64,000 nt of DNA. Origin: Melioribacteraceae bacterium 4301-Me. Lineage in GTDB: Bacteria > Bacteroidota > Ignavibacteria > Ignavibacteriales > Melioribacteraceae. The stretch is taken from assembly GCA_041538185.1 (NCBI GenBank), contig JBGORM010000005.1, positions 62,001 through 126,000 of the forward strand. The letters are read 5' to 3'. Below, one piece after another: positions 2,139 through 31,504 of this stretch. Both the position numbers and the translations under genes were made by a program. Numbering within the stretch: the stretch's first letter is position 1; the number at the start of each line of letters is the position of its first letter. The notes below the pieces were generated by a model. It made no database searches, had not been told where the DNA came from, and saw only the letters and a program-made list of their open reading frames with translations.

Positions 2139-2345
2139 AACTAAAACTTTAACCTAAAAAAATCATAAAAATTACGATATTAATGCTGAACGGCATAAGC
2201 CAATTTGTTTATCAGAATAAGCATAAGCACAAACATCAACATTATTTGTTTGCCCAATCAGGCTTGTTAGGTCTTTTGTATGTTAATAGAAAACACTTGA
2301 ACATGATATTCAAAGTTTCATCACTTTATTTATTAGAAAAAAGAC

Positions 2346-3647: not shown

Positions 3648-3739
3648 TTTTACCTCCTTAGCTGTAAATAATTAATAAAATATTTAACATAAATTTTTCA
3701 CCAGCATTGTAACTAAAGTGGATTAAACAAGTCACATGA

Positions 3740-3807
3740 TGAGAATTCACCACTTCGTGGATTATAATATTAACCATGACGACATACCACAACGTGGTGA
3801 ATTCTCA
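3740..3807. repeat. Inverted pair of GAATTCACCAC-type short repeats
   Basis: A 14-nt arm TGAGAATTCACCAC (3740-3753) is exactly inverted at 3794-3807. Each arm runs into its own small hairpin (CCAC-TTC-GTGG and CCAC-AAC-GTGG). The same GAATTCACCAC-nnn-GTGG unit recurs in the repeat-rich gap near 51.0-51.5 kb. It lies between the LacI regulator and the M24-like gene and has no T-run suited to a terminator; it is best seen as a dispersed palindromic repeat. Confidence 0.75.
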
Positions 3808-3865
3808 TGAATTTTTTGGGTTTAATATTAATAGTTTAGAAACTGTTTTACAGCTCTTTCTAATA

Positions 3866-3911
3866 ACTCCTAATTTTTAATTCCTAATTCCCAATTCCTA
3901 ATTCCTAATTT
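3866..3911. repeat. ATTCCTA tandem repeat running into the 3' end of the LacI gene
   Basis: Degenerate tandem copies of a TAATTCC/ TTTTTAATTCC unit cover 3866-3911. On the minus strand they encode the last ~14 residues and the stop codon of the LacI-family regulator. A closely similar tract at 53518-53572 does the same to an APC permease gene. Confidence 0.75.
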
Positions 3912-4931: not shown

Positions 4932-4933
4932 TT

Positions 4934-7552: not shown

Positions 7553-7615
7553 AATTTTATAATTGTTAGTTGTTGAAAAAATTATTTTAATGTGGTTATC
7601 TCAACTTAATGTTCT

Positions 7616-9781: not shown

Positions 9782-9812
9782 ATCAAAATTCCTTTTTTCT
9801 ATTAAGCAAAAA

Positions 9813-11933: not shown

Positions 11934-11995
11934 ATAGCTCCATTAATTTTTAAAGACTTCATAAATATTCGTATTATTATTACCGTATAAATCTA

Positions 11996-12056
11996 CCTGT
12001 CGGCAGACAGGCGAGAATCTGTTAATTTTTTTTTAGATTCCCACTTTCGTGGGAAT
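11996..12056. repeat. Two palindromic repeats in the largest gap of the glycan locus
   Basis: The 160-nt gap 11934-12093 holds CCTGTCGGCAGACAGG (11996-12011) and a hairpin ATTCCCAC-TTTC-GTGGGAAT (12037-12056). A copy of the second, inverted and with one mismatch, occurs at 51712-51735. In the transcribed (minus) direction neither is followed by a T-run, so they look like dispersed palindromic repeats or mRNA-stabilising stem-loops rather than terminators. Confidence 0.7.
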
Positions 12057-12093
12057 GACTATAAATGTATAAATAATTTTTCAGTAATCACTT

Positions 12094-15540: not shown

Positions 15541-15570
15541 TTATTTACAGTTCTTATTTGCCTCATAAAA

Positions 15571-17634
15571 TTATTTCAATAAAATTAACTTTTTAGTTTC
15601 GATGAAGCTTTTTGTAATTATACGATAGAGATAAACACCGCTTGCAACTTTGTGATTGTGAAAATTTGTTCCGTCCCAAGTTAAGTTATAAGTGCCTGGC
15701 ATTTTTTCTTCATCTAACAAAACTTTTACAATTCTTCCTAATGTATCGTAAATAACAATTTTAACTTTTGTTTGGACAGGTATGGTGAAACGAATAGTAG
15801 TAGTTGGGTTAAAAGGATTTGGATAATTTTGATACAACTCATAATTCATGGGAATCTCGCCAATATCATTTTTTCCAACATCAACAACTGGAGTATTTTG
15901 AGCAAGGTCAACTGCAGCATAATAATCAATTGCATAATACCACCAATCATTAAGAATACCATTTGTAACTCCAGCATATCTTGGCAGGTGACTGAACCAC
16001 CATCTCATATAACCTAGTTGTGAACAACCCCATTCACTGCAATCTACTTGTCGGGATTGGTTAAGTAAATATGGGTATCTTTTCCAATTATCAGCATATG
16101 TTATTACGACTTTATGATTTCCATAATCGTAATCCGACTGTCCATTTGGTGGAAAGTGTATATTACCAACATTAGCTTTGCCTGGAACATCCTTGTCAAT
16201 TCTAGTAAATAACTCCCACATATTAGGGTTAGCAGCCTTATTATCCCAGCGGCCAAATGCATGCCACATTGCACTTTCGACACGGTGGCCAACACTATGC
16301 ATAGCTTCTGCTACACCTCGTTCATAGTTCCAGCCCATAATAGATAATGTTTTTTGCAATCCAGGATGAGATAACGGAGGTGCGTTCCACCAAAAGGCGC
16401 CAGGTCCTGCCAATATTGATTCATACATCCCAGCAAAAGGAAAAGCATAAACCCAAACTTCATCAATCTCACCATTATTTCTTTTTGTATCTAGATTATA
16501 AAAGTCAATCATCCCATTATAATCGTAATGTATTCTTCCTTGTGTCTCGGCAATGTTTTTCAACTCTGTATATAAGTGATAGTTATCCTGGAAATAATAA
16601 GCTAAATCATTAATTGTCATGTAAGAGCTGTCAATTTTAGTAAATATATTTTGATCTTCATGCCTTTCTACAATTTGGAAAATAACCGTACTATCACTAG
16701 CTTTTTTAAACTCATCTAGAATCTGTTCAACCATAACATTTGGGTCTGTCCAATTCCACTTTTCGTGAAGTCTTTTATTCCCAAACTGAGGAATAATGGG
16801 ATCTTGAATTATTAAGGCAACTTTTACAATCTTAGTTTTAGCTCGTTGTGAAGTAAAATCTGATAAGACTTGAACATTAGCTTTACCGCTAAGAGTCCCG
16901 TCCTCTGTAGCTACTGTAACTACACAACTACCTAAAGATACACCTGTAATGTTACCACTAGCGTCTACAGTTGCTATTGATTCATCGCTAGAATGATACA
17001 CAACAGGATAATTCAAATTATAATCTGAAAAATTTCCCTCTTCATCTTTAACTTTTAGAGAAGTCTTTAATGTAGTTCCGGGAATTACCTTTGGTGGGGA
17101 GGGAGTAATTATCAAACTTGTTAATTTCAATTCTTTTTCTAATACTAATTCTCCTAAATGTATAGCAGTATCTGCTGGATTTTTAATGGAGAGTCGTAAA
17201 TACTTAACTGTTACAGGACTAAATTCTAATGAGTCCCACATAAAAGTATAAAAATGCTTTCCTGAAGTTAATGAAATATATGAACCAGTTTTGTTATTTA
17301 AGTCCACTAAACTGTTTGCTGATTCAAGCGACCATAAGCCGTCATTAAAAAAGAATACCTTGGCTTTTGAAAAAGTAATGGTATTCAAAAAATTTAATGT
17401 GATTGTTAATGTATCACTATTGGTAACTCCAGCCTCCGTAAAAGGATTGTCATCAAAAATTTTGTCGATTGAATTCCAATTAATTTCAGGATATGAATTC
17501 CATTCAATTGTGCTATCCTTAATACCACTCGCTATATCTATCTTTTGGTGAATTACAATTTGCGCTTTAGCAACAATGCTAAACAAAAAGAAATAAATAA
17601 AAACTTTTGTAATCCATTTTAAATATCGATTCAT
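15571..17634 (-). CDS. Secreted discoidin-like/Big2 protein with uncharacterised HxxxHxxE domain and T9SS sorting domain
   Basis: 687 aa; GAGGAG 8 nt before the ATG. Signal peptide ~1-24; a discoidin-like beta domain ~30-165 (KYLRLSIKNPADTAIHLGEL); a bacterial Ig-like group 2 domain ~172-255 (SSDESIATVDASGNITGVSLG); then ~268-590, a domain not recognised by name, with H446-x3-H450-x2-E453 (AMHSVGHRVE) and many conserved-looking W residues; finally a T9SS type A sorting domain (~603-687, YQNYPNPFNPTT to KKLILLK). Expected location: cell surface or released. The histidine motif may bind metal or act in sugar cleavage; function is unknown. Its place between the GH172 and GH genes argues for a part in glycan breakdown or binding. 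Confidence 0.75.
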   Translation of the reverse strand: MNRYLKWITKVFIYFFLFSIVAKAQIVIHQKIDIASGIKDSTIEWNSYPEINWNSIDKIFDDNPFTEAGVTNSDTLTITLNFLNTITFSKAKVFFFNDGLWSLESANSLVDLNNKTGSYISLTSGKHFYTFMWDSLEFSPVTVKYLRLSIKNPADTAIHLGELVLEKELKLTSLIITPSPPKVIPGTTLKTSLKVKDEEGNFSDYNLNYPVVYHSSDESIATVDASGNITGVSLGSCVVTVATEDGTLSGKANVQVLSDFTSQRAKTKIVKVALIIQDPIIPQFGNKRLHEKWNWTDPNVMVEQILDEFKKASDSTVIFQIVERHEDQNIFTKIDSSYMTINDLAYYFQDNYHLYTELKNIAETQGRIHYDYNGMIDFYNLDTKRNNGEIDEVWVYAFPFAGMYESILAGPGAFWWNAPPLSHPGLQKTLSIMGWNYERGVAEAMHSVGHRVESAMWHAFGRWDNKAANPNMWELFTRIDKDVPGKANVGNIHFPPNGQSDYDYGNHKVVITYADNWKRYPYLLNQSRQVDCSEWGCSQLGYMRWWFSHLPRYAGVTNGILNDWWYYAIDYYAAVDLAQNTPVVDVGKNDIGEIPMNYELYQNYPNPFNPTTTIRFTIPVQTKVKIVIYDTLGRIVKVLLDEEKMPGTYNLTWDGTNFHNHKVASGVYLYRIITKSFIETKKLILLK

Positions 17635-17721: not shown

Positions 17722-19707
17722 TTATTCTTTTTTAAAAGGGCTAAAAACTAGAGTATTATCTAAATCTAAAATTCTAGCGTAAAAGCCATATCCACCCAAG
17801 TTATTTTCTATTTTTAATAATAGTTTATTCCATCCTTTTTTTAAGTGCAATGGGATTTTAAATTGGTCTGGTTGTGCAATGTTTATTTTAAGAAATCTAA
17901 AAATCATTTCATCGTTCAGAAAAACTTTACTACCATCATCACTACTAAATAATAAAGGTAGGGTTTGTTCATAAGGAGAATAAACATAAGTCAAGGCATA
18001 AGTAACCACTAACTCATTTGGATTAACTAAGCCATATAATGAAAAGTACCCATTTGGAAGAGTTTTAATAAGCCTCCAGCTTATCTGTTGATTGTTTTGC
18101 CCAAAGTAGGTTTTAGTAGTGTCAAATTCTTTTTCGGGCAAGAATATTTCATCAAGTCCTAATCTATTTCCTTTTGAATCTTGTTTATTTGGATAGGGTC
18201 CTATAATATACCATTCAGGAATATAAGTTCTATTTGGTTCCAGTTTAAACGCATCCAAACCAACAAAAGAGCCTTTTGAGTTGGTATCTCGACCAGTATT
18301 AACAAGTTCAAGAATAATTTTGTTATTTACAGACCTAATTCCTTTTATAGTAATCTTACCTGCTGGGTATACTTCTGAATCATAACCAAAGATTTCACCA
18401 ACCTTTTCTCTTCTATACAAGACGTCAACGTTGCAATAATCTGGAGCCTTTGTGTAGTAAATATCTATATTATACTTATCGTCAAGCGGAGTAGGAATTG
18501 TAATTGAACATCCATTTAATTTTTCTTTTAGGTTGATTTTTAGCTGTTTAAAATTACTCCAATCTGGTCCATAATTATCCATTTTCTCAACAATAGTTTC
18601 AATATCATTCCCAACAACACTTAATGTTTCAGCTTCTATTACGTCATTGGGCACAGCTATTCTAAGAGGAATTCTCAACGAAGGTTTTAGCATGGGTGAA
18701 AATTTTTCGTGCGGTTCTTTTTGATACCAATACGCGGTGCTGCTATAATCAGCTATTTCAGAATTTTCTGTACCGTGCTCAATAGTAAATTTGATGGATT
18801 TGGTAAAGGGGATTTGGTCTCCAACCATAAACCTATAAGCTGCTATTCTTGCAGCAGAATCATCTTTAATAATAAGTCCATGATAAGGTGCCGAAAATTC
18901 GCCATGATTAAAATACCAACCACTAGTAAAAAAATCCTCAGTACCTGTACCATTAAGAGAAGGTTTTTTTTCACCGTCAACATAAACCATTTCATCGCCT
19001 TCCAAATACCAAAGCTGACCATTATAACTCTGCATACTCATGTTTAAACCAACGAATTGACCCTTTCCCTTAGCACTAAGAATTAAGTAATTATCTTTAC
19101 TCTTAGTCTTTAACTCTCTATTCCACCATGCATGGAAATATGCAACGTTTTGCGGAAGCGGATATTTAAGTTTTTGATATTCTATCTGATAATAAAAGGC
19201 ATAAACTTCCATCCCAGTTTGATTTACCACTTCTATTTTAGCGGATTTTTGAAATGGCATTGGAAAGTAGCAATAATATCCTCCGCTAGTCATTCCTGTA
19301 AACTCAGAGACATACTGCTTGTATTTAAATCCAGTACCAAAGAAATCCCCAATGGGCACTTCAACTGATGGATTTTTTTCACCGTCCCAATACATTTTTA
19401 TTAATAATCTTCTTAAAAAGTATGGGTCACGTGAATCAATTGTTACCCATATTCTGGTAATTAGACCTGGTCCTTTAATATTCGCAATAGTAGCTGTCTC
19501 CCCCTCTTTTATAGAAATTCTATCATTATTACCTCCGGTTGTATCGAAACTTGAAATCTCTACCAACTTACTATCTTTTAAGAATGGTAAACTTGATGGT
19601 GATAAAAGTTTTTCTATTTGAGACTGTGCTTTATAAGGCAGATTTAATAAAAGCATGACAGTAATTAAGGCAAAAAAATTCCAACCTGGTTTTTTATTAA
19701 AAATCAT
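17722..19707 (-). CDS. GH172 family (DUF2961) glycoside hydrolase
   Basis: 661 aa with a signal peptide (to about residue 29). Residues ~50-350 carry the DUF2961/GH172 core: GPGLITRIWVTIDS, GDFFGTGF, LWYLEGDE and GTGTEDFF. E236 and E257, 21 residues apart, fit the spacing of the two catalytic glutamates described for the alpha-fructofuranosidase/difructose dianhydride synthase founding member. The C-terminal ~350-660 holds beta domains, including a PA14-like or discoidin-like segment (FSSDDGSKVFLNDEMIF). Known members act on difructose dianhydride I or D-arabinofuranosides, forming oligomers. The actual substrate here is unknown. It follows the PorV-like gene by 30 nt in the same direction. 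Confidence 0.87.
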   Translation of the reverse strand: MIFNKKPGWNFFALITVMLLLNLPYKAQSQIEKLLSPSSLPFLKDSKLVEISSFDTTGGNNDRISIKEGETATIANIKGPGLITRIWVTIDSRDPYFLRRLLIKMYWDGEKNPSVEVPIGDFFGTGFKYKQYVSEFTGMTSGGYYCYFPMPFQKSAKIEVVNQTGMEVYAFYYQIEYQKLKYPLPQNVAYFHAWWNRELKTKSKDNYLILSAKGKGQFVGLNMSMQSYNGQLWYLEGDEMVYVDGEKKPSLNGTGTEDFFTSGWYFNHGEFSAPYHGLIIKDDSAARIAAYRFMVGDQIPFTKSIKFTIEHGTENSEIADYSSTAYWYQKEPHEKFSPMLKPSLRIPLRIAVPNDVIEAETLSVVGNDIETIVEKMDNYGPDWSNFKQLKINLKEKLNGCSITIPTPLDDKYNIDIYYTKAPDYCNVDVLYRREKVGEIFGYDSEVYPAGKITIKGIRSVNNKIILELVNTGRDTNSKGSFVGLDAFKLEPNRTYIPEWYIIGPYPNKQDSKGNRLGLDEIFLPEKEFDTTKTYFGQNNQQISWRLIKTLPNGYFSLYGLVNPNELVVTYALTYVYSPYEQTLPLLFSSDDGSKVFLNDEMIFRFLKINIAQPDQFKIPLHLKKGWNKLLLKIENNLGGYGFYARILDLDNTLVFSPFKKE

Positions 19708-19737
19708 ATATTACCAAAAAATATTTCTTTATAGATT

Positions 19738-20661
19738 TTATTCAAGATTTATCCCAATCCCAATTCTGTGTGCAACACCAAGTAGTCCAAAGCTGCTATA
19801 AGAATAATCAAATCGCGTATTAATATTAGATATGCTAAACTTTACACCCCCTCCAAAAGTAAAAGTTGCCACATCATAGTTAATTTTATACCCACCTCTT
19901 GCAAAAAATTGATTATGAAAATTCCATTCAATTCCTACTTGAGAGAGGGGTTTTCCATCGTTCGGTTTCAAGGCAGAAAAGCTAAGTATAACCTTCTGAT
20001 TTTCGTTTTCAATAGCATTAATTGACGCACCAAAAGTAAAAGCCGTTGGAAGTGGGTAGGATTCGTTTACAAATTTCACATTCGAACCAAAATTAGTGAT
20101 TGCCATAGCGAATTTAAACCCACGAAAGTCTGATGTATACATAGTTGCAATATCAACTGAAACAGCATCAGCTTTAAAATCTTTATATAAAGAGAGATTT
20201 ATATAACTAATTGTTGCACCAATGGTAACACGGTCAGTAAAAAATCTTGCATAACTTAATCCAAATCTATAATTCCCAGCATAAAAAGTTTCTCCAGTTC
20301 CATCAGGTTGAAGCGGGGTTCTTACTTTCATTTCATCTGTATACAAAGCAGTTACAGACAACCCAAAAGTTCCAAGTTCTTCAAATGAATGTGTAGCAGC
20401 AACAAAATCGTGATTAATACCAGCAAACCAAAAATTATGATTAAAGACAATATCAGTGCCCTTTATCCAAGGCAATTCTGCTGCATTATAATAAGTTGCT
20501 TCAGCTCCTTCCACTACAGAAATATAAGCATCTCCCATAGCTGTACCACGAGGACTTACGCCAATCTTTAAAAATTGGGCATCAGTGCTGCCTGGACGCT
20601 GATATTGTGCATAAGTAAGTAGAGGAATCATTATAAATATTATTATACCTCTGTGAATCAT
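19738..20661 (-). CDS. PorV/PorQ-family outer-membrane protein
   Basis: 307 aa; AAGGTGG ribosome-binding site; short signal peptide to about residue 19 (PLLTYAQ). The mature start QYQRPGSTDAQFLKIGVSPRGTAMGDAYISV and the following EATYYNAAELPWI are characteristic of the PorV/PorQ (UPF0164, FadL-like barrel) family. The remainder alternates beta strands and ends in GIGINLE. Family role: PorV shuttles and helps attach T9SS cargo at the cell surface. Placement within the glycan locus, beside two paralogous proteins with sorting-type C-termini, suggests a dedicated copy for these cargoes; this is inference, since generic PorV-like paralogs are common in this group. Confidence 0.85.
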   Translation of the reverse strand: MIHRGIIIFIMIPLLTYAQYQRPGSTDAQFLKIGVSPRGTAMGDAYISVVEGAEATYYNAAELPWIKGTDIVFNHNFWFAGINHDFVAATHSFEELGTFGLSVTALYTDEMKVRTPLQPDGTGETFYAGNYRFGLSYARFFTDRVTIGATISYINLSLYKDFKADAVSVDIATMYTSDFRGFKFAMAITNFGSNVKFVNESYPLPTAFTFGASINAIENENQKVILSFSALKPNDGKPLSQVGIEWNFHNQFFARGGYKINYDVATFTFGGGVKFSISNINTRFDYSYSSFGLLGVAHRIGIGINLE

Positions 20662-20693
20662 ATGTAAAACCCACCTTATTTTATTACAAACAC

Positions 20694-22481
20694 TTATTTT
20701 ATTATTACAAATTTTCCTACCTGCACTTGTTTAGTACTAAGGTCCTCAACAGTAAATAAATATATACCGCTAGAAACAGCTTGTCCAACATAGGAAGTTA
20801 AGTTCCAATCTTCGTAGCCTTTATTGGGATTATTATGATTAATAGTAAAGATATAGTCGCCAGCTAAAGAATAAATTTTAATTACGCAATTAGCCGGCAG
20901 ATTGATGAATTGAATTCTTCTATCCTGTTCCATCCATGTTGATCTTGTAATTTGAGGCTTTTCCCAAGGGGGATTGTATGAATAATAAGCAATATCACCC
21001 CGATAAGGATTAGGAACAACAGCTACCTCTCCAACTGTTTGTGGTGGTTCTGTGCCAGGCACTACAGTTTTAGCATTTGCAAAAATGCTCGATTCTTGTG
21101 AAGGAAAATTTATAGATTTATCTTCTTTTGAAAAGGCTGTTACAGAATAATAGTATTCAAAATTGTTTAACAATCCTTTATCTACGTATTCATGTTGGAG
21201 TCCAGTTTCATTGCCGTAGCCATCGTTAGCAATATCATACTCCCCTAATAAGGTCCAAGGACCTGAGATACTTTGTGTGCTTTTGTACAACCTATAACCT
21301 TCAAATGGTTGACTTACGCTATCACCTCTATTTGGGTCAAAATATGTTTCCGGATTAACATCGCCATCTTGAGGCTTCCAGCTTAAAATTACTTGGTGAT
21401 TCATTGTTTGAACTCTAAGCGGGGGAACAGGCGGAGGTGAGGGAACTTTAAAGTTTTTTTGAACAAGCCAATCCAATATCTTTAAATTTGCTAAAACACC
21501 ATTTACACCATGCCCAAGTATTTCTCCCACTTGAAAATGTAAAGTATCTCCTACATTTATATTAAAAGGCCCGAACGCAATAATAAACTGAGAACCTATA
21601 GGATCTTGCTGGTCTTCCATTATTACACCAGCAGCCATTTGCTTATAGCGCAATACATCATCCGACGGTGGCGCACCCATACCTTGTCCAGGATACCAGT
21701 TAAATGTCCATCTTATTGAATCAGCTAAAATGTTTTTAGGAGGGAATATTTTCATAGCTATAGGACTAACTGCATTACCATCCGCACCTCCTGGATTGTC
21801 AATGCCCATACCCATGTGTTTATCTTTGTAATAAACAGAGTAATCATCTAAAGCAAAATCCCAACTAGTTCCTCGATAACCAACGTTAGCATCTAACCAG
21901 TAAGCGATATATGCTTTTCTAAGGTTTACTTTTTTAGGTATGATATAGAAATTGTAAACTATCATTTGGTCTAAAGGAGGAGAAGCCCATGCATAGCTTG
22001 TTTGTATTACTTCTACATGTAAAGGCTTATGAGATGGTATGTTTGACAGGTTATCATCACTATATCTGCAAACAAAATCTTGATCTGAAATTCCCACATA
22101 CTTATGCCAATATGGTATATCAACTGTATCGTTCTTGTGAACGACCCATATAGAATCCCAAGGTTCTGCAGTAGGATAAAACTCAAAATTAGAATTCCAG
22201 CTTGTGGTAACAGAAACGGTAGTGTCACCTGTACTTTCATTAATAGCCCCAATCCAAATACCACCCTCACCTATATGCTCTTCAAAGCTTCCTCTAGGAA
22301 ATTCTGAGTATATAAGTCCTGGATAATCTGTCCCTGCACGCCATAGTGTTCCCATGTTTGTTACTAATTGTCTTACCTGGCCTACATCATGAACCTTGTA
22401 ATCTAGATGTGTTTTTTGTGCATATATATTCATAGTAAATATCACAGTAAACATTATTAGTATTCTTTTTTTCATAAGCAT
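20694..22481 (-). CDS. Surface protein, FN3-like domain and PNPYRG-type T9SS C-terminus (paralog A)
   Basis: 595 aa with a signal peptide (to about ...NIYAQ). The first ~340 residues are a beta-rich domain not recognised by name (DFVCRYSDDN, VIQTSYAWASPPLDQMIVYNFYII). A proline-rich hinge PSPPPVPPLRV leads into a fibronectin type III-like domain (~355-475). The last ~95 residues (VAVVPNPYRGDIAYYSYNPP, IKIYSLAGDY, GIYLFTVED, VGKFVIIK) are a variant T9SS sorting domain. The gene is co-directional with its paralog, starting 4 nt after that gene's stop. No SusD is present, so this pair may bind glycan at the surface for the adjacent TonB receptor (inference). Confidence 0.75.
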   Translation of the reverse strand: MLMKKRILIMFTVIFTMNIYAQKTHLDYKVHDVGQVRQLVTNMGTLWRAGTDYPGLIYSEFPRGSFEEHIGEGGIWIGAINESTGDTTVSVTTSWNSNFEFYPTAEPWDSIWVVHKNDTVDIPYWHKYVGISDQDFVCRYSDDNLSNIPSHKPLHVEVIQTSYAWASPPLDQMIVYNFYIIPKKVNLRKAYIAYWLDANVGYRGTSWDFALDDYSVYYKDKHMGMGIDNPGGADGNAVSPIAMKIFPPKNILADSIRWTFNWYPGQGMGAPPSDDVLRYKQMAAGVIMEDQQDPIGSQFIIAFGPFNINVGDTLHFQVGEILGHGVNGVLANLKILDWLVQKNFKVPSPPPVPPLRVQTMNHQVILSWKPQDGDVNPETYFDPNRGDSVSQPFEGYRLYKSTQSISGPWTLLGEYDIANDGYGNETGLQHEYVDKGLLNNFEYYYSVTAFSKEDKSINFPSQESSIFANAKTVVPGTEPPQTVGEVAVVPNPYRGDIAYYSYNPPWEKPQITRSTWMEQDRRIQFINLPANCVIKIYSLAGDYIFTINHNNPNKGYEDWNLTSYVGQAVSSGIYLFTVEDLSTKQVQVGKFVIIK

Positions 22482-22485
22482 ATTT

Positions 22486-24282
22486 CTACTTTATGATAAC
22501 AAATTTTCCGACCTGTACATTTCCAGTTGTTTTATCTTCTACAGTAAATAAATAAAGTCCACTAGAAATTGCCTGTCCAACACTCGAAGTTAAATTCCAG
22601 TCCTCATATCCTTTCTGAATGTCATTATGTTGCAAAGTAGTTATTAAATCACCTGCCAGTGTATATATCTTAATCTCACAATTAACTGGCAGATTAATAA
22701 ATTGTATTCTTCTATCTTGTTCCATCCACTGGTGACGAGAGCCTGTTGGCTTTTCCCAGGGTGGGTTGTAGGAATAGTAAGGCAAATCACCTCTATAAGG
22801 ATTAGGAACAACTGCTACAGCTCCAACATCATTCGGAGGCGAGGTGCCAGGAACTGCCGTTTTAGCATTTGCTGAAAGACTTGATTCTTGTTCTGGAAAA
22901 TTAATAGTAGCATCTGGTTTCGATAATGAAGTAACTGTATAATAATACTCGACATTGTTAAGCAAGCCAACATCTGTATATTGATATGCTAAACCTGTAT
23001 TGGGTCCAACATTATCATCGGCAATATCGTATTCACCCAGTAGCGTCCATGGACCTGAAGAGCTAATAGTGCTCTTATATACCCTATAACCCTCAAAAGG
23101 TTTTGTTATGCCATCAGTTCTATTAACATCAATAAACTCTTCAGGATTAATATCACCTGGTCGAGGTTTCCAGTCTAAAATAACTTTTTTGTCGTCGGTT
23201 TTAATACGTAAGGGTGGAGGCGGTGGAGGCGATGGAATCTTAAAATTTCTTTCTACGAGCCATTGTACAAATTTTGCATTAGCCTGAAGACCTTCTATGC
23301 CTTTTCCACAAATAAATGCAATTGTAAAATGAAGTGTGTCACCAACGTTCATTTTATAAGGACCGACAGAAACAAAGCCCTTAGTACCATCTCCTGTGCT
23401 TATTTGATCTTCCATAATTTTACCAGAGGAAATTTGGCTGTATCTTTGATTATCCAAACTAGGCAACCCTTGTTGCCTACCATTATACCACGTAAATGTT
23501 GTTGATAAGTCACCTTCTAAATTATTATTTGGCGGGAATATTTTATTTCCGATAGGACTAATAGCCTGTCCATCAACACCACCAGGTAAATCCAAACATA
23601 TTTGCATCATTTCATTTTTTTGAAAATAGGTTATATCATCTAAAGCATAGTCCGTATACGTATTGTTGCCAACATTACCATTCATCCAGCTAGTTAAAAA
23701 AACATGTTTCAAGTTGTATTTTCTTGATATAATAAAATATTCAACCACAATAAAATCGCTCAAAGGTTCAGATGCCCATGCGTGACTAATTTGAATTACC
23801 TCTAAGCCAAGTGGATGATGATTAGGTACTCTAAGACTAACAGGTCCATAGTCAGTATATCTACAAACAAAGTCTTGATCGGATTTACCCACATACTTAT
23901 TCCAATATGGAATATCCACAGTGTCATTTTTCGATACAACCCAAATAGTATCCCACATTGCATCCGAAGGGTAAAATTCTTTAGGTGAACCTTCACCCTC
24001 TGCTACTGATACATAGTTTACAGAATCTAAAGTTGCTCCGACCCACAACCCAGCATCAGCAATGTGTTCTTCTGAGCTGTTAGGGGGATATTCACAATTT
24101 ATTAAGCCGGGGTAATTAAATAGACCATCACCAACTGCATTAAACTCGCCAGTGTTGGTTACTACAAGACGTATTTTACCAATGTTGTGCAGTTTCCAAT
24201 CAAGCGTTACATTTTGTGAATATATATATTTAGAAAACAAGGTCGCGATCATAAACGAGAGAAAAAAAATTCTTTTTATCAT
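22486..24282 (-). CDS. Surface protein, FN3-like domain and PNPYRG-type T9SS C-terminus (paralog B)
   Basis: 598 aa, same architecture as the next gene and alignable throughout: N-terminal signal peptide, domain of ~340 residues with DFVCRYTDYG and VIQISHAWASEPLSDFIVVEYFII, hinge PSPPPPPPLRI, FN3-like domain, and the sorting-type end VAVVPNPYRGDLPYYSYNPP to VGKFVIIK. Shared near-identical blocks (WMEQDRRIQFINLP, SSGLYLFTVED) indicate a duplication within the locus. It starts 40 nt after the TonB receptor stop. Probable role: cell-surface glycan capture or structural partner of the receptor; unproven. Confidence 0.75.
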   Translation of the reverse strand: MIKRIFFLSFMIATLFSKYIYSQNVTLDWKLHNIGKIRLVVTNTGEFNAVGDGLFNYPGLINCEYPPNSSEEHIADAGLWVGATLDSVNYVSVAEGEGSPKEFYPSDAMWDTIWVVSKNDTVDIPYWNKYVGKSDQDFVCRYTDYGPVSLRVPNHHPLGLEVIQISHAWASEPLSDFIVVEYFIISRKYNLKHVFLTSWMNGNVGNNTYTDYALDDITYFQKNEMMQICLDLPGGVDGQAISPIGNKIFPPNNNLEGDLSTTFTWYNGRQQGLPSLDNQRYSQISSGKIMEDQISTGDGTKGFVSVGPYKMNVGDTLHFTIAFICGKGIEGLQANAKFVQWLVERNFKIPSPPPPPPLRIKTDDKKVILDWKPRPGDINPEEFIDVNRTDGITKPFEGYRVYKSTISSSGPWTLLGEYDIADDNVGPNTGLAYQYTDVGLLNNVEYYYTVTSLSKPDATINFPEQESSLSANAKTAVPGTSPPNDVGAVAVVPNPYRGDLPYYSYNPPWEKPTGSRHQWMEQDRRIQFINLPVNCEIKIYTLAGDLITTLQHNDIQKGYEDWNLTSSVGQAISSGLYLFTVEDKTTGNVQVGKFVIIK

Positions 24283-24322
24283 AAATGTGGCGTAATGTTA
24301 ATAATAATGATGCCTAAATGAA

Positions 24323-27097
24323 TTACCAATCAACTCTTATCCCAAGTTGCGCATATCTTCCAGTAGAAAACTGCCTTGGGTCCATTAGCCTGTACATCGT
24401 ATACCAGTCATAATATACATTTGTACCTGGTTGAACATCACCATACTTATATGGTTTACCTGTCCAATTATTAAATCCGTAAGCAATTTGAACATTTTTT
24501 TGATCAAAAATATTGAATACATCTAGTTCTAAACTAAGTGAAATCCCACCTATTATATCGAAACTCTTTGTAAATCTAACGTCTGTTTGTGTTGTTATTG
24601 GTCCAGTTGCAGAATTTGCTAATTTTTGTGCATCGGCTTGACTAAAAGTACCTGGTGTATAAGGCTGTCCAGATGAAAAATTAGAAAGCACCGTCAAGGA
24701 CCAATTATCAGGTAGTTGAACACCAAATAAATTTATTTGCTTTCCTTTGGGGGAGCTAATCGTACCTTGGAAAACAATCTGATGTCTAATGTCCCAATCA
24801 AGTCTAGTTTCACGAATTGGATTTGGAAAATCTGTTAAAGAACGAATGTAATCTGCAAAGGCAGATGAAGAATAACCATTAGCCCATTGCACTGTATAGG
24901 TTAGTTTTCCCGAAATAAAATTTGAGTAAAGTTTGTTAAGGGTAAATTCAAGACCCCTTGCCCTTGAGTAGCCAATATTATCATACAAATCAACTGGTAT
25001 TCCTAATGCAGCTTTTAAGTGTGTAGTACCAACTTGTTTTGATATATCCTTTGCATAGCTTTTAATATCTAGACCCCAATCCTGACCAATCTGATAAGTC
25101 AAGCCGAATTCATACTGAATTGTTCGCTCGAAGTCCAGTTTTGGATTACCCGTAAAGGAACCACTATAAGGGTCACGATAATAGAACTGTAACTCAGGTA
25201 ATTGGATAAAATGCCCATAGGAAAAATAAGTGACCATTTTTTCTGATATTGGGAACGAAATTCCGAATCTAGGGCTAAATTGATATTTGAAGAGACTCCA
25301 ATCGGCTTTAAAACCCGTTGCATCTTCCCATTGTTGCTTCCAACCTGGGTCGTCAACTGTCTTCCCTAAATAAAACCAATCCCAACGAATTCCAGCATTT
25401 ATTATTAAGAATTCTTTTTCAAATTTATCTTGGATGTAAGCGCTGCCAATCCAAGGGTAAGTGTGAAACACCCATCTATATTGTCCAAACTCAGGAAATG
25501 GTCCTGGAGGAGGCGGTACTTTTGGTCCATTATTATACAGATATTCACCATAATTTGATAATTTAGTACCTCCATCTTCTATATCGACATAACTCAAGTC
25601 ATTGTATTTTATTGTAGCACCAATTTTAATAAGATGATCGGGGAGTATTTGCGAGGTTAAATCGGTAATAAAAGAAAAGGTAGAGGTGTTATCATCTCTC
25701 CAAATTGCCTGAAAGCTATCGCCAGCATAAAATCCTGTTAATGGGTCATAATAAGGAGCTTTAATTATAGACGAGTCAATCCAGCCATTTGGAGTTTGTC
25801 TTATTACCCAGTAGTCTGCCGGGGTACGCTTGTCTAGGTCCTCATGGTACTTAACTCCCAAATAACCAAATCTAACATTCATAAATGTAGATTGAGAAAA
25901 AATGTGTTTGTACTGGATGTTTAATTCATTGTTAAACCTAAGATAGCCAGGGGTATTGTCAGGGTAATATTTCCATAGCCAATCAAATTGACTCCAGTAA
26001 TTCCATGAGCCGTTATAATTTATTATCAATTGGGAATTTTTTGATATATCCCAATTAATTTTGGCAGTAAGTGTAGCTGTATTGCTCTGTTTTTCGGTGA
26101 ATTCGATACCAAATAAGTTTATTTTATTTCGTATGCGGTTATTATTATATGGTGTATTAGTCATATTAATTGTTGCATTTAGAAAGTAATAAAGTTGACC
26201 AGGCACATTAATTCCTAGCGCTGGTAATAAATTTCGTGTAATTGGTTCTGGTCCTCCAAAGAAAATTGTAGCATATTGTGTTTTATAATTCTCTCCCAAG
26301 AATTTGAAGCTATCATTTCTATATTCAACACCTCCGGTAAATTTTTCACTACCCGTTCTTGTAGTTATATTTACCACTCCAGACTGAGCTTCCCCATATT
26401 CGGCATTAAATGCACCTGTTAACAGTTGTACTTGTTGAACAGAGTTAACATCAAGATCAAGCACACTTCTGCCCCCATAAAGCGGGTGTGTAACTGGCAT
26501 TCCATCTACAAGGAATAAAATCTCTCCACCGCGCCCTCCTCTAATATGGATATCTTTTACACTTTGGTCTCTAACCTGCAATTGTGTATCACCAAGAGGC
26601 ACAAGCTGTGGTGCAGTGCCTATTACGGTTCCGCCTTGTAGCTTAAAAATATCGGAAGTAGTCTGTAAGCCTGGTACATTTTTTATATCTTCTCTCGTAA
26701 CAGTTCTTTCGGTATTAGTAACATCTTTTTGAATTATTTTTTGTTGTGCTGTTACCACAACAGTCGGGGTCTGAATTGTAGTAGGCTCTAACTGCACATC
26801 AATTTGAGAAGTAAGGTCAGCTCTCACTAAAACATTTTCGACCGTAATTGTATGATAACCTATCATAGAAATTTTTAGAGTGTAAGTATCAGGCGGAACC
26901 CCAATTATATAGTATTGTCCATCTTCGCCGCTTGCAGCCCCCATTGTAGTGCCAACCAAAACAACATTAGCACCCAAAAGTGGTTCTCCCGTTTCTTTGT
27001 CTGTGATTTTACCTGCTATTTTGCCAGAACCAGAAGCAAATACTTTAACAGCAAGTAAACTAATTAGCATCAAAATTTTAATTTTGTTGCTTTTCAA
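24323..27097 (-). CDS. TonB-dependent receptor with carboxypeptidase-regulatory N-domain
   Basis: 924 aa. The start is TTG at 27097, set by AAGGAG 8 nt upstream that lies right after the stop of the preceding gene. Signal peptide ~1-22; carboxypeptidase-D regulatory-like beta domain ~24-110 (GKIAGKITDKETGEPLLGANV); TonB-box-like TVVVTAQ ~113-119; plug ~125-250 (IHIRGGRGGEILFLVDGMPV, GAFNAEYGEAQSGVVNI); then a 22-strand-type barrel ending in a terminal aromatic (LGIRVDW). It is an outer-membrane importer energised by TonB-ExbBD. This is the SusC-like component of the glycan locus, although no SusD gene accompanies it. Confidence 0.92.
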   Translation of the reverse strand: MKSNKIKILMLISLLAVKVFASGSGKIAGKITDKETGEPLLGANVVLVGTTMGAASGEDGQYYIIGVPPDTYTLKISMIGYHTITVENVLVRADLTSQIDVQLEPTTIQTPTVVVTAQQKIIQKDVTNTERTVTREDIKNVPGLQTTSDIFKLQGGTVIGTAPQLVPLGDTQLQVRDQSVKDIHIRGGRGGEILFLVDGMPVTHPLYGGRSVLDLDVNSVQQVQLLTGAFNAEYGEAQSGVVNITTRTGSEKFTGGVEYRNDSFKFLGENYKTQYATIFFGGPEPITRNLLPALGINVPGQLYYFLNATINMTNTPYNNNRIRNKINLFGIEFTEKQSNTATLTAKINWDISKNSQLIINYNGSWNYWSQFDWLWKYYPDNTPGYLRFNNELNIQYKHIFSQSTFMNVRFGYLGVKYHEDLDKRTPADYWVIRQTPNGWIDSSIIKAPYYDPLTGFYAGDSFQAIWRDDNTSTFSFITDLTSQILPDHLIKIGATIKYNDLSYVDIEDGGTKLSNYGEYLYNNGPKVPPPPGPFPEFGQYRWVFHTYPWIGSAYIQDKFEKEFLIINAGIRWDWFYLGKTVDDPGWKQQWEDATGFKADWSLFKYQFSPRFGISFPISEKMVTYFSYGHFIQLPELQFYYRDPYSGSFTGNPKLDFERTIQYEFGLTYQIGQDWGLDIKSYAKDISKQVGTTHLKAALGIPVDLYDNIGYSRARGLEFTLNKLYSNFISGKLTYTVQWANGYSSSAFADYIRSLTDFPNPIRETRLDWDIRHQIVFQGTISSPKGKQINLFGVQLPDNWSLTVLSNFSSGQPYTPGTFSQADAQKLANSATGPITTQTDVRFTKSFDIIGGISLSLELDVFNIFDQKNVQIAYGFNNWTGKPYKYGDVQPGTNVYYDWYTMYRLMDPRQFSTGRYAQLGIRVDW

Positions 27098-27112: not shown

Positions 27113-28576
27113 TTACTGTATATGTAAATTCTGAAGAATATCTTTTACCATTTGTTTAGCGTCGTCTTTTTTAATAAAGTAAATAGGGAATCCAAGTATA
27201 ACTGCATCGAAAACGGTACCATAATATCGTAGGCCAACTGCACGACCTCTATATTGAAAGTACGGACTATCATTAGCATTATCATAAGAATATATTATAT
27301 CTGTAAACCCAGCACGCTGTGTAACAAGATTAATTTGGCCTAATTTACCATAGTAAGGGAATGCTTCTGCAAGCTTTGCTGAGTCAACACGAATATCAGA
27401 GTAACCTTTTGCAGCTATCGCGCCTGTAAAATCTGCATCCAATACGGTTTCATCAACTGAAATAATATGTAAATAATCATGCACAAATGATCCTTTAGGG
27501 AATGAAACAGGAAAATTTTGATTCCATGCAAAAGACTTTAAGATTCTCCAACCACTCATAATAAACTTACCGCCGACATTTAAATAATCAGAAATAGCCT
27601 GCTGATTGGAAATTAAGGCCAAAGAGTGTGGTTGCGCACTTGGTCTATCATCTGCCACCCAAACAATTAATTTATATTGACCTAAAGTATCTTTAGGGGG
27701 CATACCTTTAGACAAATAGTTCCACCAGTCGCTACCCGGAAACAAATCAGAGTAAAAATCTTTAACATCTTGATTACTACTTTGTACTCCAGGTGGAAAG
27801 TTATTTACATTCGTTTCATTAATTACTAAAATCTTTTTGGTAAAAGTTGCAACGAGCAGTCTTATTGTTACGGAATCTCCAACAGGGTCAATAAGATTTG
27901 TATTATTTTTTGAAGTTACTCTTAAAACATGATTCCCAGCTAAAGGGGGTTTTAACAAATTTGGAGTAATATAAACTGATGTGTCTTGTGTCCAATTCCA
28001 ATTACCATCATCAACGGACCAAGCATAAGAAACAACTTGTCCCCCATCCTCTGCATCCTTAGCTGTGTATGTTAACTGGATTCCCTGCCACCAATCTGTT
28101 GTTTGGCTTATAGCAAAAAAAGCCTGCTTGTTAGTTGGCGATAAAATTTTAGTTGTAGGTGGACTTGCTTTTGGAGTATAGAAAATTTTTGTTGCTGGCG
28201 TTGGATCAGGTGTACCATTATTATCAACTGCCCTAACTTCAAAGAGTTGTTTGTTTAATATATCATCAGAAACGAAAGCGATAGTTAGACTCGTTTCTTT
28301 GGTGTCTTTCCATGGCTGTACTACTGAATCTTTCATTGTGAGATGATAAGTAGTATATCTATATTGATAATATGAAACATAGCCATCGTTATCATTACCA
28401 TCCCAATGTAAAGTTACAAGTGCAAATAATGTATCGCCCTCTTTAGGAATATTTGCAATAACAGTATTAGGCGGTTCATTTGGATTAGGTGGCGCTGTTG
28501 GCCTCTCACACGAACTGTCAATCAGAATAGAAATTATAAATAAAAGTAGTAAACTAATTTTAAGCAAAATTTTCAT
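27113..28576 (-). CDS. Lipoprotein with Ig/FN3-like domains and a GATase-like C-terminal domain
   Basis: The ATG at 28576 (487 aa) is preferred: GGAG lies 9 nt upstream, while an in-frame TTG at 28594 has none. A hydrophobic leader ends in a lipobox-like DSSC. About 30-130 and 140-250 are Ig/FN3-like (TLHWDGNDNDGYVSYYQYRY, AKDAEDGGQVVSYAWSVDDG). The C-terminal ~250-487 resembles a Rossmann/GATase-like module (KKILVINETN, YKLIVWVADD, ISDYLNVGGKFIMSGW). The name of this last domain is uncertain. It is probably an outer-membrane-anchored glycan-binding or scaffold component. Confidence 0.68.
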   Translation of the reverse strand: MKILLKISLLLLFIISILIDSSCERPTAPPNPNEPPNTVIANIPKEGDTLFALVTLHWDGNDNDGYVSYYQYRYTTYHLTMKDSVVQPWKDTKETSLTIAFVSDDILNKQLFEVRAVDNNGTPDPTPATKIFYTPKASPPTTKILSPTNKQAFFAISQTTDWWQGIQLTYTAKDAEDGGQVVSYAWSVDDGNWNWTQDTSVYITPNLLKPPLAGNHVLRVTSKNNTNLIDPVGDSVTIRLLVATFTKKILVINETNVNNFPPGVQSSNQDVKDFYSDLFPGSDWWNYLSKGMPPKDTLGQYKLIVWVADDRPSAQPHSLALISNQQAISDYLNVGGKFIMSGWRILKSFAWNQNFPVSFPKGSFVHDYLHIISVDETVLDADFTGAIAAKGYSDIRVDSAKLAEAFPYYGKLGQINLVTQRAGFTDIIYSYDNANDSPYFQYRGRAVGLRYYGTVFDAVILGFPIYFIKKDDAKQMVKDILQNLHIQ

Positions 28577-28599
28577 TTTAAAACTCTCCAGCAAGTCTT

Positions 28600-29208
28600 C
28601 TAAAAATATTTTACCTCTACAACTTCTAATTGACGATTGAAGTAATACGAATCTCTAAAACGCTGAACAGATTTAAAAGGATTTAGTTGAACTTTAATTT
28701 CTGTAGTCTTGTTTTCTGCCACTTCAAAATTAACAGGTAAAGCAACTAATTTAGATTCATTTGGAGGCAATTCAACCGGGATATCAAAAATTCCTATATG
28801 TAACAAGTCAGCTGTTAATCCAAAAACAATTGAAGTATAATTTCCTGGTGGCACGTACGATTCAAAAATAATATGCGGCTTATATGTATTATTTTCTCTT
28901 TCAATTACATTTATAACTTTATCTTCCTGTCTATAGCTATTAATTGAAGGATATAGTATAGCGAAAACTGAATCGGAGTAGGCCTTTCCTTGAAAGACAG
29001 TTGTTCTAAAGTTGTCACCATCGGAGACAGTTAGAGTATCGTTAATAATAATAATTGAAGTATCCGTAGGATTTGATTGCAAAACTATTCTTAATATTCC
29101 AGGTTTCGGCGAACTTTGCACGCCTGTATCACAACTTACTATAAAAGCAACTAATGACAAGGCCAAAACTATAATGTAAAATATGTGTTGATAATTTTTA
29201 TTTGTCAT
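28600..29208 (-). CDS. Small lipoprotein of the glycan locus
   Basis: 202 aa. Hydrophobic leader with lipobox AFIVSC (cysteine about residue 26). The rest is beta-rich: GILRIVLQSNPTDTSIIIINDTLTVSD and GNYTSIVFGLTADLL resemble the DUF4382-like or carbohydrate-binding lipoprotein folds seen in Bacteroidetes surface lipoproteins, but no firm family assignment is possible. It lies second in the locus, 23 nt before the larger lipoprotein. A long inverted repeat just upstream (29241-29268) separates it from the first gene. Confidence 0.65.
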   Translation of the reverse strand: MTNKNYQHIFYIIVLALSLVAFIVSCDTGVQSSPKPGILRIVLQSNPTDTSIIIINDTLTVSDGDNFRTTVFQGKAYSDSVFAILYPSINSYRQEDKVINVIERENNTYKPHIIFESYVPPGNYTSIVFGLTADLLHIGIFDIPVELPPNESKLVALPVNFEVAENKTTEIKVQLNPFKSVQRFRDSYYFNRQLEVVEVKYF

Positions 29209-29276: not shown

Positions 29277-31376
29277 TTAACGTAATAACATCATCTTCTT
29301 TGCTTGAATAAACTCATTAGTTATTAATCTATATATGTATACTCCGCTCGCTACCTCAGCACCTTCATTATTAGTTCCATCCCAGACCACAGTATATTTC
29401 CCAGGCTGTCGAAAATCATTTACTAATGTTTTAATTTTTCTACCTAGTATATCATAAACAGACAATGTTACTTTCTGTGCACTTGGGATTACAAACCTAA
29501 TTAGTGTTGTAGGGTTAAATGGATTTGGGTAATTTTGAGATAATTCATAATAGTGAGGAATAGATGCATCTTTTTGATTAACACCCGTTACAGTATTTTT
29601 TGCTTGTCCATTATTATAAATTTGGACATCATCAATTAGGCCTCTAAATCCCCTTATACCGTTTAAATTTCCACCATTTCCTATTCTTAAAGGCGCATTA
29701 GCTATAGTAGGAGGATTTACAGCAACCGAAGAATCGTAACCTACACTTAGCAATGTATTTGTCGAATCAAACAACATAAACACCGCGGCAGTATCTGTTC
29801 TTCTATAAACAACACGATACCACTTATGCAGTTTTATAGAGTCAGGTAATGTTATTTCACTATAATCTTCGGTTCTATTTTGTGCATTCGGATCAACATA
29901 GTACCGAGCTCTTATTCTAGCATTAGGCTCAAATCTTATTTCGTAATTATTTTGGTACCAATTCCCTCTTACTATTGGTCTATTTAACAACCTGGTATAC
30001 TCCAAAGTAGAATCTGCATTAAACCAGAAGGAAACATAAAAATCTTTCATAGTAAGAAATGGAGAAGGAACTTCCAAAAAGGCAGAATCTGCATCATCAG
30101 GCATCAAAAAGGAATACTTACCCTCAGCAGCGTTAGTGGAATATGAAGGAGTTCTATTACCAAAAGTCAACACTTGATTTGAAAGTGGGGATAAATCAAC
30201 AGGCGTTCCTGAACCATTTTCGAAATTAAGATGAAGAACTAAAATATTGGGCTTGTAAACAACAAATGAATAGTATGGATAATCTTGACCACCAATGCCA
30301 GCAATTGGCTGTTGAGCTGTCAATCCTTGATTATCGGTAGCAGTGACGTAATAGCGAACCTCAGTACCAAAATTTTGCTTTGGAATTAACCCTGTGTAAT
30401 GGTCCGTAGAGTCCATAACCATTGGTGCTGTAAACCATGTATTTCCTCCATCAACAGAAAAATGTATTTCAGCACTTTGAATTGAGCCTGTAGATGCAAA
30501 AGCCATTATATTTGCCCCTACTTCATAGCCATCTACACTGTCGGCTTGATTAGGAATTTGTGTTAAGTTTGTTATTATCGGTGGGACAGCAAAATTTCTT
30601 ACAACATTGCTTATACGTATTTCATCTACAAACCCATCTAACCATCCATCTGTACTTCCTTGTCCCGCAAAGCCAATTGTTACAGGCTGCTTTGTTTGTA
30701 TTGGCGGGACGTCTAAAACAGGATCATAGCTAGCAGTGTTAAATGAAATTAATTGCCTTTTGTCATCATGTATCATTTGAATGAGAATATGGCGAGATGT
30801 ATCACGAATAAAGGTTAAATGAAACCACTTACCGGGCACTAAAGTATTATTTGGAGAGTTAACTTGAGGCCATCTGTCTTGACCTTCTACATTGTACCCT
30901 GTTGAAAAAAATCTATTATCTCCCCAATTTTCTACAAAATAGTTGGGTCGCCAAAAAACTTCGTCACCTGCTTTAATTATTAGGCGTGGTACCCATCTCC
31001 AATCAGATGAACTAGTCCCATATGTAAAAACATTCATCCAGCCCTCAATTGTCCAGTCACCTTTTAAGTTCAACGCAGGTGTATCTGGTACACTCACATA
31101 AGAGGAGTCAGTAACTGCATCGTTATTTATCCTTAAGCATTGACCTAATCCAAGTGCTGCATTTGACAAAAAGGTCAGCTTACCGTGCCCAATTCCATCA
31201 GCAGAAAATTGTGACTCATTCTTTAAATTGCCATCAAAATGTAACAGCAGTACTGTGTTACTATCTGGTGTATAAGGACCTCCTATTTGTTCTTGGGCAT
31301 AAAATATACTAACTGCGCCCAGCAAAAATGTAAAAATAAAATACCTAAAAAATGTTACAGGTAGTGTTTTTATCAT
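29277..31376 (-). CDS. Secreted double-LamG protein with T9SS sorting domain (first gene of glycan locus)
   Basis: The ATG at 31376 (699 aa) is chosen: GGAGG lies 6 nt upstream, whereas the in-frame TTG at 31382 lacks spacing. Signal peptide ends near IFYAQE. Two concanavalin A/LamG-like jelly-roll domains (~20-250 with VLLLHFDGNLKNES and GFVDEIRISNVVR; ~385-600 with GLIDDVQIYN) flank an FN3-like linker. The end (YELSQNYPNPFNPTT to KKMMLLR) is a T9SS type A sorting domain. It is a likely surface glycan-binding protein. It directly follows the LacI-type operator and promoter with a ~150-nt leader. Confidence 0.85.
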   Translation of the reverse strand: MIKTLPVTFFRYFIFTFLLGAVSIFYAQEQIGGPYTPDSNTVLLLHFDGNLKNESQFSADGIGHGKLTFLSNAALGLGQCLRINNDAVTDSSYVSVPDTPALNLKGDWTIEGWMNVFTYGTSSSDWRWVPRLIIKAGDEVFWRPNYFVENWGDNRFFSTGYNVEGQDRWPQVNSPNNTLVPGKWFHLTFIRDTSRHILIQMIHDDKRQLISFNTASYDPVLDVPPIQTKQPVTIGFAGQGSTDGWLDGFVDEIRISNVVRNFAVPPIITNLTQIPNQADSVDGYEVGANIMAFASTGSIQSAEIHFSVDGGNTWFTAPMVMDSTDHYTGLIPKQNFGTEVRYYVTATDNQGLTAQQPIAGIGGQDYPYYSFVVYKPNILVLHLNFENGSGTPVDLSPLSNQVLTFGNRTPSYSTNAAEGKYSFLMPDDADSAFLEVPSPFLTMKDFYVSFWFNADSTLEYTRLLNRPIVRGNWYQNNYEIRFEPNARIRARYYVDPNAQNRTEDYSEITLPDSIKLHKWYRVVYRRTDTAAVFMLFDSTNTLLSVGYDSSVAVNPPTIANAPLRIGNGGNLNGIRGFRGLIDDVQIYNNGQAKNTVTGVNQKDASIPHYYELSQNYPNPFNPTTLIRFVIPSAQKVTLSVYDILGRKIKTLVNDFRQPGKYTVVWDGTNNEGAEVASGVYIYRLITNEFIQAKKMMLLR

Positions 31377-31504
31377 TGGCAACCTCCATTGTTATTTATA
31401 AGATAATTTAACTATGACAATAAGTAACAAAAAATCACTTTTTGAATAGAATATTTTTAAAAATGCTTTTAAAAAACTTTACAACATTAGGTAAATTTGA
31501 TTAA

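Follow-up and report, generated by a model that had tools for sequence, protein, structure and literature searches.

A 64,000-nucleotide stretch of DNA from Melioribacteraceae bacterium 4301-Me, which we call the window, carries on its minus strand a module of four adjacent genes encoding a TonB-dependent receptor, two paralogous proteins (middle proteins a and b) and a barrel of the PorV/PorQ family. The middle proteins end in a C-terminal domain (CTD) of the type found on cargo of the type IX secretion system (T9SS). We consider it a probable, hitherto undescribed equivalent of the SusC/SusD importers. On balance, and with slightly better than even confidence, we read the middle protein as a glycan-binding protein that would be exported by the T9SS, anchored by a PorV-type barrel of its own and put at the service of the TonB receptor as SusD serves SusC. 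Somewhat more tentatively, the module may represent a second general partnered-importer architecture, parallel to SusCD, in which a receptor, a T9SS-exported supersandwich protein and a dedicated PorV-type barrel recur across several Fibrobacterota-Chlorobiota-Bacteroidota phyla and take SusCD's place where SusD is poor. Partnered TonB-dependent uptake is already known; what would be new is the partner, the export route and the anchor. No description of a module made of receptor, CTD protein and PorV-family barrel was found in the searched portions of the open-licence PMC literature, and the portions seen of PMC8754138, PMC5317091, PMC12611786, PMC12578637 and PMC11285876 contain nothing on such a module.

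The module and the fold of its middle proteins

The open reading frames of the whole stretch place the receptor first in the order of transcription, followed by the two paralogs and the PorV-family barrel, with intergenic gaps of 40, 4 and 32 bp. An earlier note on this DNA had listed the same four genes, in this order, within 19738-27097, and was right to do so. The receptor (24323..27097, minus strand, 924 aa) has a CarbopepD_reg_2 domain (PF13715), a plug (PF07715) and a TonB-dependent beta-barrel (PF00593), all over their cut-offs. The SusC/RagA model TIGR04056 matched it best over residues 26-259 and remained below its cut-off (90 versus 368 bits). A TonB-box-like sequence, VVVTA, is found at residue 113.

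Middle protein a (22486..24282, minus strand, 598 aa), which we aligned with its relatives, and middle protein b (20694..22481, minus strand, 595 aa) are 57% identical end to end and have the same architecture. In a, this comprises a signal peptide (assigned by eye), a supersandwich-type N-domain (assigned by homology with b), an FN3-like domain and a T9SS-type CTD. Neither of the two paralogs had a Pfam match over cut-off, nor did any of nine relatives scanned that lie between a receptor and a barrel in other modules. The assignments in b come from an AlphaFold2 model (pLDDT 92.8, pTM 0.87) and its structural matches. The structure prediction that the earlier note had proposed for the N-terminal region, when run on b, yielded a confident fold with a recognisable beta-supersandwich. 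This N-domain (residues 22-345; 21447..22418, minus strand), which includes a helix at 325-341, resembles known beta-supersandwich domains with Z 17-20 at 3.0-4.0 Å over 226-272 residues. VIA-align gave Z 18.6-20.2 over 233-270 residues against 9ju0, 1ug9, 1lf6 and 5bvu. In each case the matching portion is N-terminal; the enzymes concerned are dextran dextrinase, glucodextranase, bacterial glucoamylase, GH116 beta-glucosidase and the cellobiose/cellodextrin phosphorylases, some of the GH family labels of these structures being presumed. A search of PDB sequences with the middle-protein profile gave as its best match the end of PorU, at E 0.5. SusD was absent among the 50 structural matches listed for the middle protein, which excludes nothing.

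We considered the possibility that the middle proteins are enzymes. In the GH15/GH94/GH116/GH65 enzymes, the catalytic six-hairpin barrel comes after the supersandwich. In b, the N-domain is followed by a proline-rich linker, the FN3-like domain and the CTD; the model contains no helical domain that could be the (alpha/alpha)6 barrel of GH15, GH94 or GH116 type, its longest helices being at 2-19 and 325-341. The enzyme hypothesis was rejected because of the missing catalytic barrel and the lack of any Pfam match over cut-off. The N-domain did not, therefore, turn out to be a known enzyme unrelated to uptake, one of two outcomes that the earlier note had seen as fatal to its proposal; its fold is that of the N-domain of sugar-active enzymes.

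The middle-protein alignment comprises 79 sequences (2 from the window and 77 of 81 candidates). E100 and D142 are present in all 79, and H151, W76, W165, W262 and Y279 in 70-77 of the 79. Judged from this alignment, the conserved N-domain residues would suit a ligand site. The companion alignment comprises 53 sequences (1 from the window and 52 of 58 candidates).

Recurrence and co-inheritance of the module

The window's genome (G000) was compared with three relatives. We used the 67 of 88 PorV-family rows that exceeded the 90-bit cut-off (weaker rows and fragments were dropped) and all 124 Plug rows. Over the four genomes, 49 of the 67 PorV-family genes lie at most 9 kb downstream of a same-strand Plug gene, each with its own receptor. 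This corresponds to 9 of 13 PorV-family genes in the window's genome and to 10 of 14, 15 of 20 and 15 of 20 in the relatives, hence to 9, 10, 15 and 15 modules. The chance expectation per PorV-family gene is 0.027-0.039, and chance adjacency of the triad was rejected on this comparison (49/67 versus about 3%). The module described in the earlier note is real; by this downstream-of-Plug criterion, it is one of nine in its genome.

The genes lying in between were surveyed in 47 of the 49 modules, the two omitted being the window's own and L049 (G263 contig 3), in which the receptor directly adjoins the barrel, with the middle protein two genes upstream. One or two relatives of the paralogs separate receptor and barrel in 45 of the 47 modules, including all eight modules of the window's genome that lie outside the window. 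L084 has only a 124-aa open reading frame in between, with a relative upstream (L193), and L093 has no middle-protein relative. The survey also covered a 48th barrel (L101), whose receptor is downstream and which is not among the 49. At E<1e-3, the CTD profile matched 46 of the 47 in-between genes, the FN3 profile 43 and the N-domain profile 43. The relatives range from about 590 to 1270 aa, the variable portions being the N-terminal part and the interval between FN3 and CTD. The triad is thus conserved in other genomes, and the second outcome that the earlier note had named as a refutation did not occur either. On G251 contig 16 (L043), three middle-protein relatives follow one another in tandem; neither a receptor nor a barrel is labelled next to them, and a complete module (L044) lies about 20 kb away.

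When GTDB contigs were scanned with the middle protein, over 500 matches were confirmed, and the top 80 of these correspond to 77 loci. Ignavibacteria, Calditrichota, KSB1, Marinimicrobia, WOR-3, Krumholzibacteriota and Rhodothermales are among the groups represented; some genomes are shared with the four-genome survey, so that the two are not independent. Among the 76 loci counted (L133 has no called middle-protein ORF), a receptor was present within five same-strand genes of the middle protein in 60, a PorV-family barrel in 52 and both in 50. Both were present in 21 of the 23 loci with at least 8.5 kb on both flanks. The neighbourhood survey suggested in the earlier note for Ignavibacteria therefore bears out the association when run beyond that class. 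Gene orders vary: receptor, middle protein, barrel; middle protein, T9SS protein, lipoprotein-like, receptor, barrel; or receptor, barrel, another gene, middle protein, lipoprotein-like. A linkage that survives rearrangement suggests a joint function more strongly than the unchanging order of a frozen operon. The second order, with a middle protein of about 690 aa, is widespread, being seen in many of the loci L138-L178 and in L193 (G113 contig 59).

The three module proteins are inherited together. Their distance matrices over 46 modules correlate with r 0.71-0.89, and none of 2000 permutations reached the observed values. The receptor barrel and the N-terminal part of the middle protein correlate at 0.89, compared with 0.86 for two parts of one and the same receptor; with the PorV-family barrel held fixed, the correlation between middle protein and receptor barrel is 0.60. 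These figures bear on the possibility that the middle protein is a barrel-held T9SS glycan-binding protein that sits beside the receptor, in the manner of SusE/SusF, and not in its gate. The variable gene order, which sometimes parts the middle protein from the receptor, and the presence of two or three copies beside one receptor (in the window and in L103) would be accounted for in this way. Yet both the 0.89 correlation and its 0.60 remainder argue for a closer tie, as does the fact that 45 of the 47 modules surveyed have a middle protein separating the receptor from the barrel, and we consider the SusE/SusF-like arrangement unlikely, though a serious contender.

A second alternative concerns the genes upstream of the receptor. 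The module belongs to a seven-gene minus-strand run (31382-19738) with gaps of 4-68 bp, which starts with a LamG protein bearing a T9SS tail and continues with two lipoprotein-like proteins (the first DUF4382, the second PKD-like), the receptor, the two paralogs and the PorV/PorQ-family protein. The layout proposed in the earlier note stands for the module itself; it had overlooked the three conserved genes upstream. The one nearest to the receptor (27113..28594, minus strand) encodes a putative surface lipoprotein, recognised as such by eye, with a weak PKD-like match (PF00801, 0.011, below cut-off). The next (28600..29208, minus strand) encodes a putative DUF4382 lipoprotein, also assigned by eye, which falls just short of its model (PF14321, 2.8e-5, 24.8 versus 25 bits). 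Both are placed alike, directly upstream of the receptor, in L038-L041. Nineteen of the 77 loci, across phyla, have relatives of both, in most cases immediately upstream of the receptor gene, and 8 of these 19 have a LacI relative; the counts cover the fetched stretches, many of which are ended by contig ends. From this position, the lipoprotein-like proteins (27113-29208) could be the true SusD-like partners, the middle protein having another surface role. However, none is labelled in L054-L057 and L062-L101, the loci of the other modules of the four genomes that do not belong to window-type cassettes; only the best label was considered there, and many stretches end within 1-2 kb upstream of the receptor. 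We regard this explanation as improbable.

The first gene of the conserved cassette (29277..31382, minus strand) encodes the LamG protein with a type A T9SS tail (PF13385 and TIGR04183, both over cut-off); it is kept in related cassettes too. A MAG labelled Melioribacter roseus also has the cassette, with a middle protein that is 87% identical. A promoter scan was uninformative, and the single minus-strand terminator-like site in 12000-31990 is at 15175, within a downstream gene.

The barrel, the C-terminal domain and the proposed export route

The barrel gene (19738..20661, minus strand) encodes a 307-aa protein of the PorV/PorQ family, for which we propose a role as dedicated shuttle and anchor. 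It matches the family model NF033709 (PorV_fam) over its cut-off (3.3e-51, 174.8 versus 90 bits) and stays under the equivalog models of PorV (63.8 versus 250 bits) and PorQ (75.8 versus 220 bits). Its structural model (pLDDT 92.7) has 14 long strands. We considered the possibility that it lets small products diffuse through, as a channel of FadL type, the CTD of the middle protein having only a structural role. FadL entries do match the model, with Z about 28-31, but PorV entries match it best (Z 34.7 for 8gl6_F and 34.4 for 6h3i_F), PorV is the sole PDB sequence match of the barrel profile at E<=0.01 (9.9e-32), and the T9SS-type domain profile matches 46 of the 47 in-between genes, which makes the diffusion channel very improbable. 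Another FadL-type barrel, BamG, binds a surface lipoprotein, according to the portion seen of PMC12578637.

The window's genome contains the T9SS machinery: SprA/Sov (1030 bits), PorU (996 bits) and a canonical PorV (261.7 versus 250 bits). The idea that the module's barrel is itself this canonical PorV was rejected, since the latter adjoins PorU on contig 3. These two share that locus (L182) with an adjacent gene for a T9SS-dependent M6-like inactivated metalloprotease (NF052323, 1141 bits). SprA was matched in 19 of the 20 genomes that hold a middle-protein relative.

The CTD of b (20697..21041, minus strand) comprises its last 115 aa and begins near a PNPYRG motif; that of a is at 22489..22833 on the same strand. 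At E<=0.01, the terminal portion of NF052228, the PorZ model, recognised 46 of 48 module CTDs, that of the PorU model 34 and the type A model 28. The CTD of a matched NF052228 at 1.5e-6, the PorU model at 7.7e-4 and TIGR04183 at 9.8e-4 (19.1 versus 23 bits). No type B model of NCBIfam was among the matches of the 48 CTDs; the CHU_C family of Pfam weakly matched 16 of them. When a profile of module tails was set against a type A-like profile, all 84 middle-protein tails from other loci preferred the former; of 59 held-out tails picked by a K[MLI] ending, 58 preferred the latter. We therefore rejected ordinary type A cargo as an identity for the middle proteins, whose TIGR04183 scores are also below cut-off. 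In L062, L074, L078, L080 and L092, the CTD of the middle protein runs on past the usual end into a short EQQ/ETQ-type extension.

Precedents for CTD proteins held by barrels are found in the portions seen of several papers. PorQ anchors PorZ, and PorV keeps PorU at the surface (PMC5562754). PorU and PorZ retain their CTDs, and cognate PorV-like barrels have been proposed to shield these from cleavage (review, PMC10202324). Type B cargo is bound by barrels of the PorP/SprF family, which also act as its anchors (PMC9143113), and certain cargo proteins have specialised shuttles (PMC12618676). By analogy with PorQ-PorZ and with PorP/SprF and type B cargo, we propose that the CTD of the middle protein is anchored on the module's own barrel.

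Sugar-use genes, SusD distribution and the meaning of the module

Next downstream of the barrel lies a gene for a DUF2961 protein (17722..19707, minus strand; PF11175, 1.3e-84), which we take to be of family GH172 and which has relatives in L038 and L039. Further minus-strand genes (403..17634) encode a T9SS-tailed protein, four glycosidase-type proteins, a LacI-family regulator, an M24 peptidase and a sodium:solute symporter. The four glycosidase-type genes (4934-15540), with MGH1-like, GH116-like and trehalase-like matches, share strand and cluster with the DUF2961 gene. TonB, two ExbD and ExbB are encoded at 58748-61329. In a scan of one flanking gene per module, three of six other modules (L064, L065 and L069) had a glucoamylase-type or starch-binding neighbour. 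Sugar import is supported by these neighbours and by the glycosidase-type genes, LacI regulator and symporter of the window's cluster. L193 has different surroundings: in place of sugar genes, the genes after its module encode an NHL protein, a phosphoesterase-type protein with a T9SS tail and a lamin-tail protein, which may serve DNA or nucleotide use; not all modules need therefore be for sugars. This one case scanned might also suggest that the receptor serves biogenesis or signalling, sensing or aiding the display of the exported protein, with uptake beside the point, but the window's glycosidase-type genes, LacI regulator, symporter and TonB/ExbBD make this hard to credit.

In the importer that we favour, the middle proteins would be synthesised with a signal peptide and then cross the outer membrane via the T9SS (SprA). 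Their own PorV-family barrel would receive them, the CTD staying bound and uncleaved. The supersandwich domain would be located on or beside the TonB receptor, presumably in a physical complex with it, and would capture oligosaccharides freed by the glycosidases of the cluster. The receptor would then import the captured sugars, powered by TonB/ExbBD. SusD's job would in this way be done with an unrelated fold, by a different export route and with a barrel in the lipid's place as anchor.

The earlier note had called the module SusD-less. This holds for the window's genome, in which SusD PF07980 had no match, and fails across the class, where 25 of 119 genomes match that family. Two other models, PF14322 and PF12771, had no match in G000, G263, G113 and G089; PF12741 was not searched. 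SusD is not foreign to the group, since the portion seen of PMC3534657 reports one SusCDE starch operon in Melioribacter roseus. PorV-family or SusD matches were present in 155 of 198 genomes of the phylum, and 43 had neither. Over the 155 genomes, the two counts were anticorrelated (rho -0.62), and the rank correlation was -0.68 for the 106 of them outside the class. Seventy-three genomes have at least 7 PorV-family genes; none of these has 7 or more SusD, and 36 have 1-6. Conversely, 37 of the 42 genomes with at least 7 SusD have 1-3 PorV-family genes. In the window's class, 42 of 49 genomes have no SusD match and 32 of 49 have at least 7 PorV-family genes. The earlier note had proposed that T9SS-exported proteins may replace SusD-type lipoproteins in this lineage. 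The presence of the T9SS, the lack of a SusD match in the genome and the anticorrelation support this idea; replacement in the strict sense is contradicted by the 36 of 73 genomes that keep 1-6 SusD.

Several observations weigh against the importer proposed here. The trade-off between SusD and PorV family is a pattern and not a test, because per-genome matches saturate at about 10-11 and the genomes are related to each other; adding the 43 genomes with neither family brings the rank correlation to about zero. No specific coevolution of barrel and CTD is seen, as little of their correlation is left (a partial value of 0.09) on controlling for the receptor barrel. The link of the N-domain with sugar enzymes is one of fold only, since a profile comparison of the middle protein with the window's glycosidases was not significant. 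As for the CTD, full-length a and b reach 15.9 and 14.8 bits on the type A model TIGR04183, below its cut-off of 23 bits. The similarity of the full-length paralogs to the PorZ model is confined to its final ~70 positions, and their scores are far from its whole-protein cut-off (22.6 and 22.8 versus 260 bits), and the PorU tails of the group score about equally with the type A and module tail profiles. The libraries leave the kind of CTD unsettled, because Pfam CHU_C, FlgD_ig and Por_Secre_tail also match (16, 9 and 6 of the 48 CTDs). The TonB-box pattern occurs in 17 of 46 receptors and in 349 of 9200 shuffles. Finally, one of the 20 genomes with a middle-protein relative, G370 (WOR-3, L125), has no SprA match, perhaps because its SprA has diverged or is absent from the assembled sequence.

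Comparison with known systems helps to situate the module. Like SusC/SusD (RagA/RagB), it combines a CarbopepD_reg_2 TonB receptor with a surface partner, occurs in many copies per genome and lies, here, in a sugar-use cluster. In contrast with SusC/SusD, its partner is mostly beta (supersandwich, FN3-like domain and CTD) and has no match to the SusD family, its export would depend on the T9SS instead of a surface-lipoprotein route, a PorV-family barrel is included and the receptor is below the SusC/RagA cut-off. The module may thus be SusCD-like in its working, but it is not a member of that system, having no SusD match and a receptor under the SusC/RagA cut-off. The beta-supersandwich is shared with the N-terminal part of GH15/GH94/GH116/GH65 enzymes (Z 17-20), whereas the catalytic six-hairpin domain of these is replaced in the middle protein by the FN3-like domain and the CTD. 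BtuB-BtuG of Bacteroides, in the portion of the source seen, also pairs a TonB receptor with a non-SusD surface partner, but BtuG is a lipoprotein. We know of no PorV-family barrel in BtuB-BtuG. The PorZ-PorQ and PorU-PorV pairs are similar in that a CTD surface protein goes with a PorV-family barrel, and module CTDs match the PorZ model more often than any other; unlike these pairs, the module shows no sortase domain or A-LPS role, is linked to a TonB receptor and is present in many copies per genome. In the pairs of type B cargo and PorP/SprF barrel (SprB-SprF, PG1035-PorP), the genes of cognate cargo and barrel are likewise adjacent and the barrel anchors the cargo, as described in the portions seen of PMC9143113 and PMC12618676. 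The module differs from them by a barrel of the PorV/PorQ family and by the receptor as a third partner.

Known SusCD importers do not explain the uptake of large sugars in this class, given the 42 of 49 genomes without a SusD match and the 32 with at least 7 PorV-family genes. The module is a candidate for this function in these bacteria. It would explain why the four genomes counted have 13-20 PorV-family genes each, as against 1-3 in most SusD-rich genomes of the phylum, and it would give a likely role to a protein family that has no Pfam match in the members scanned. It would also link type IX secretion with nutrient uptake. If this is true, the T9SS would be an assembly route for nutrient importers, and expansion of the PorV family would be a marker of diet.

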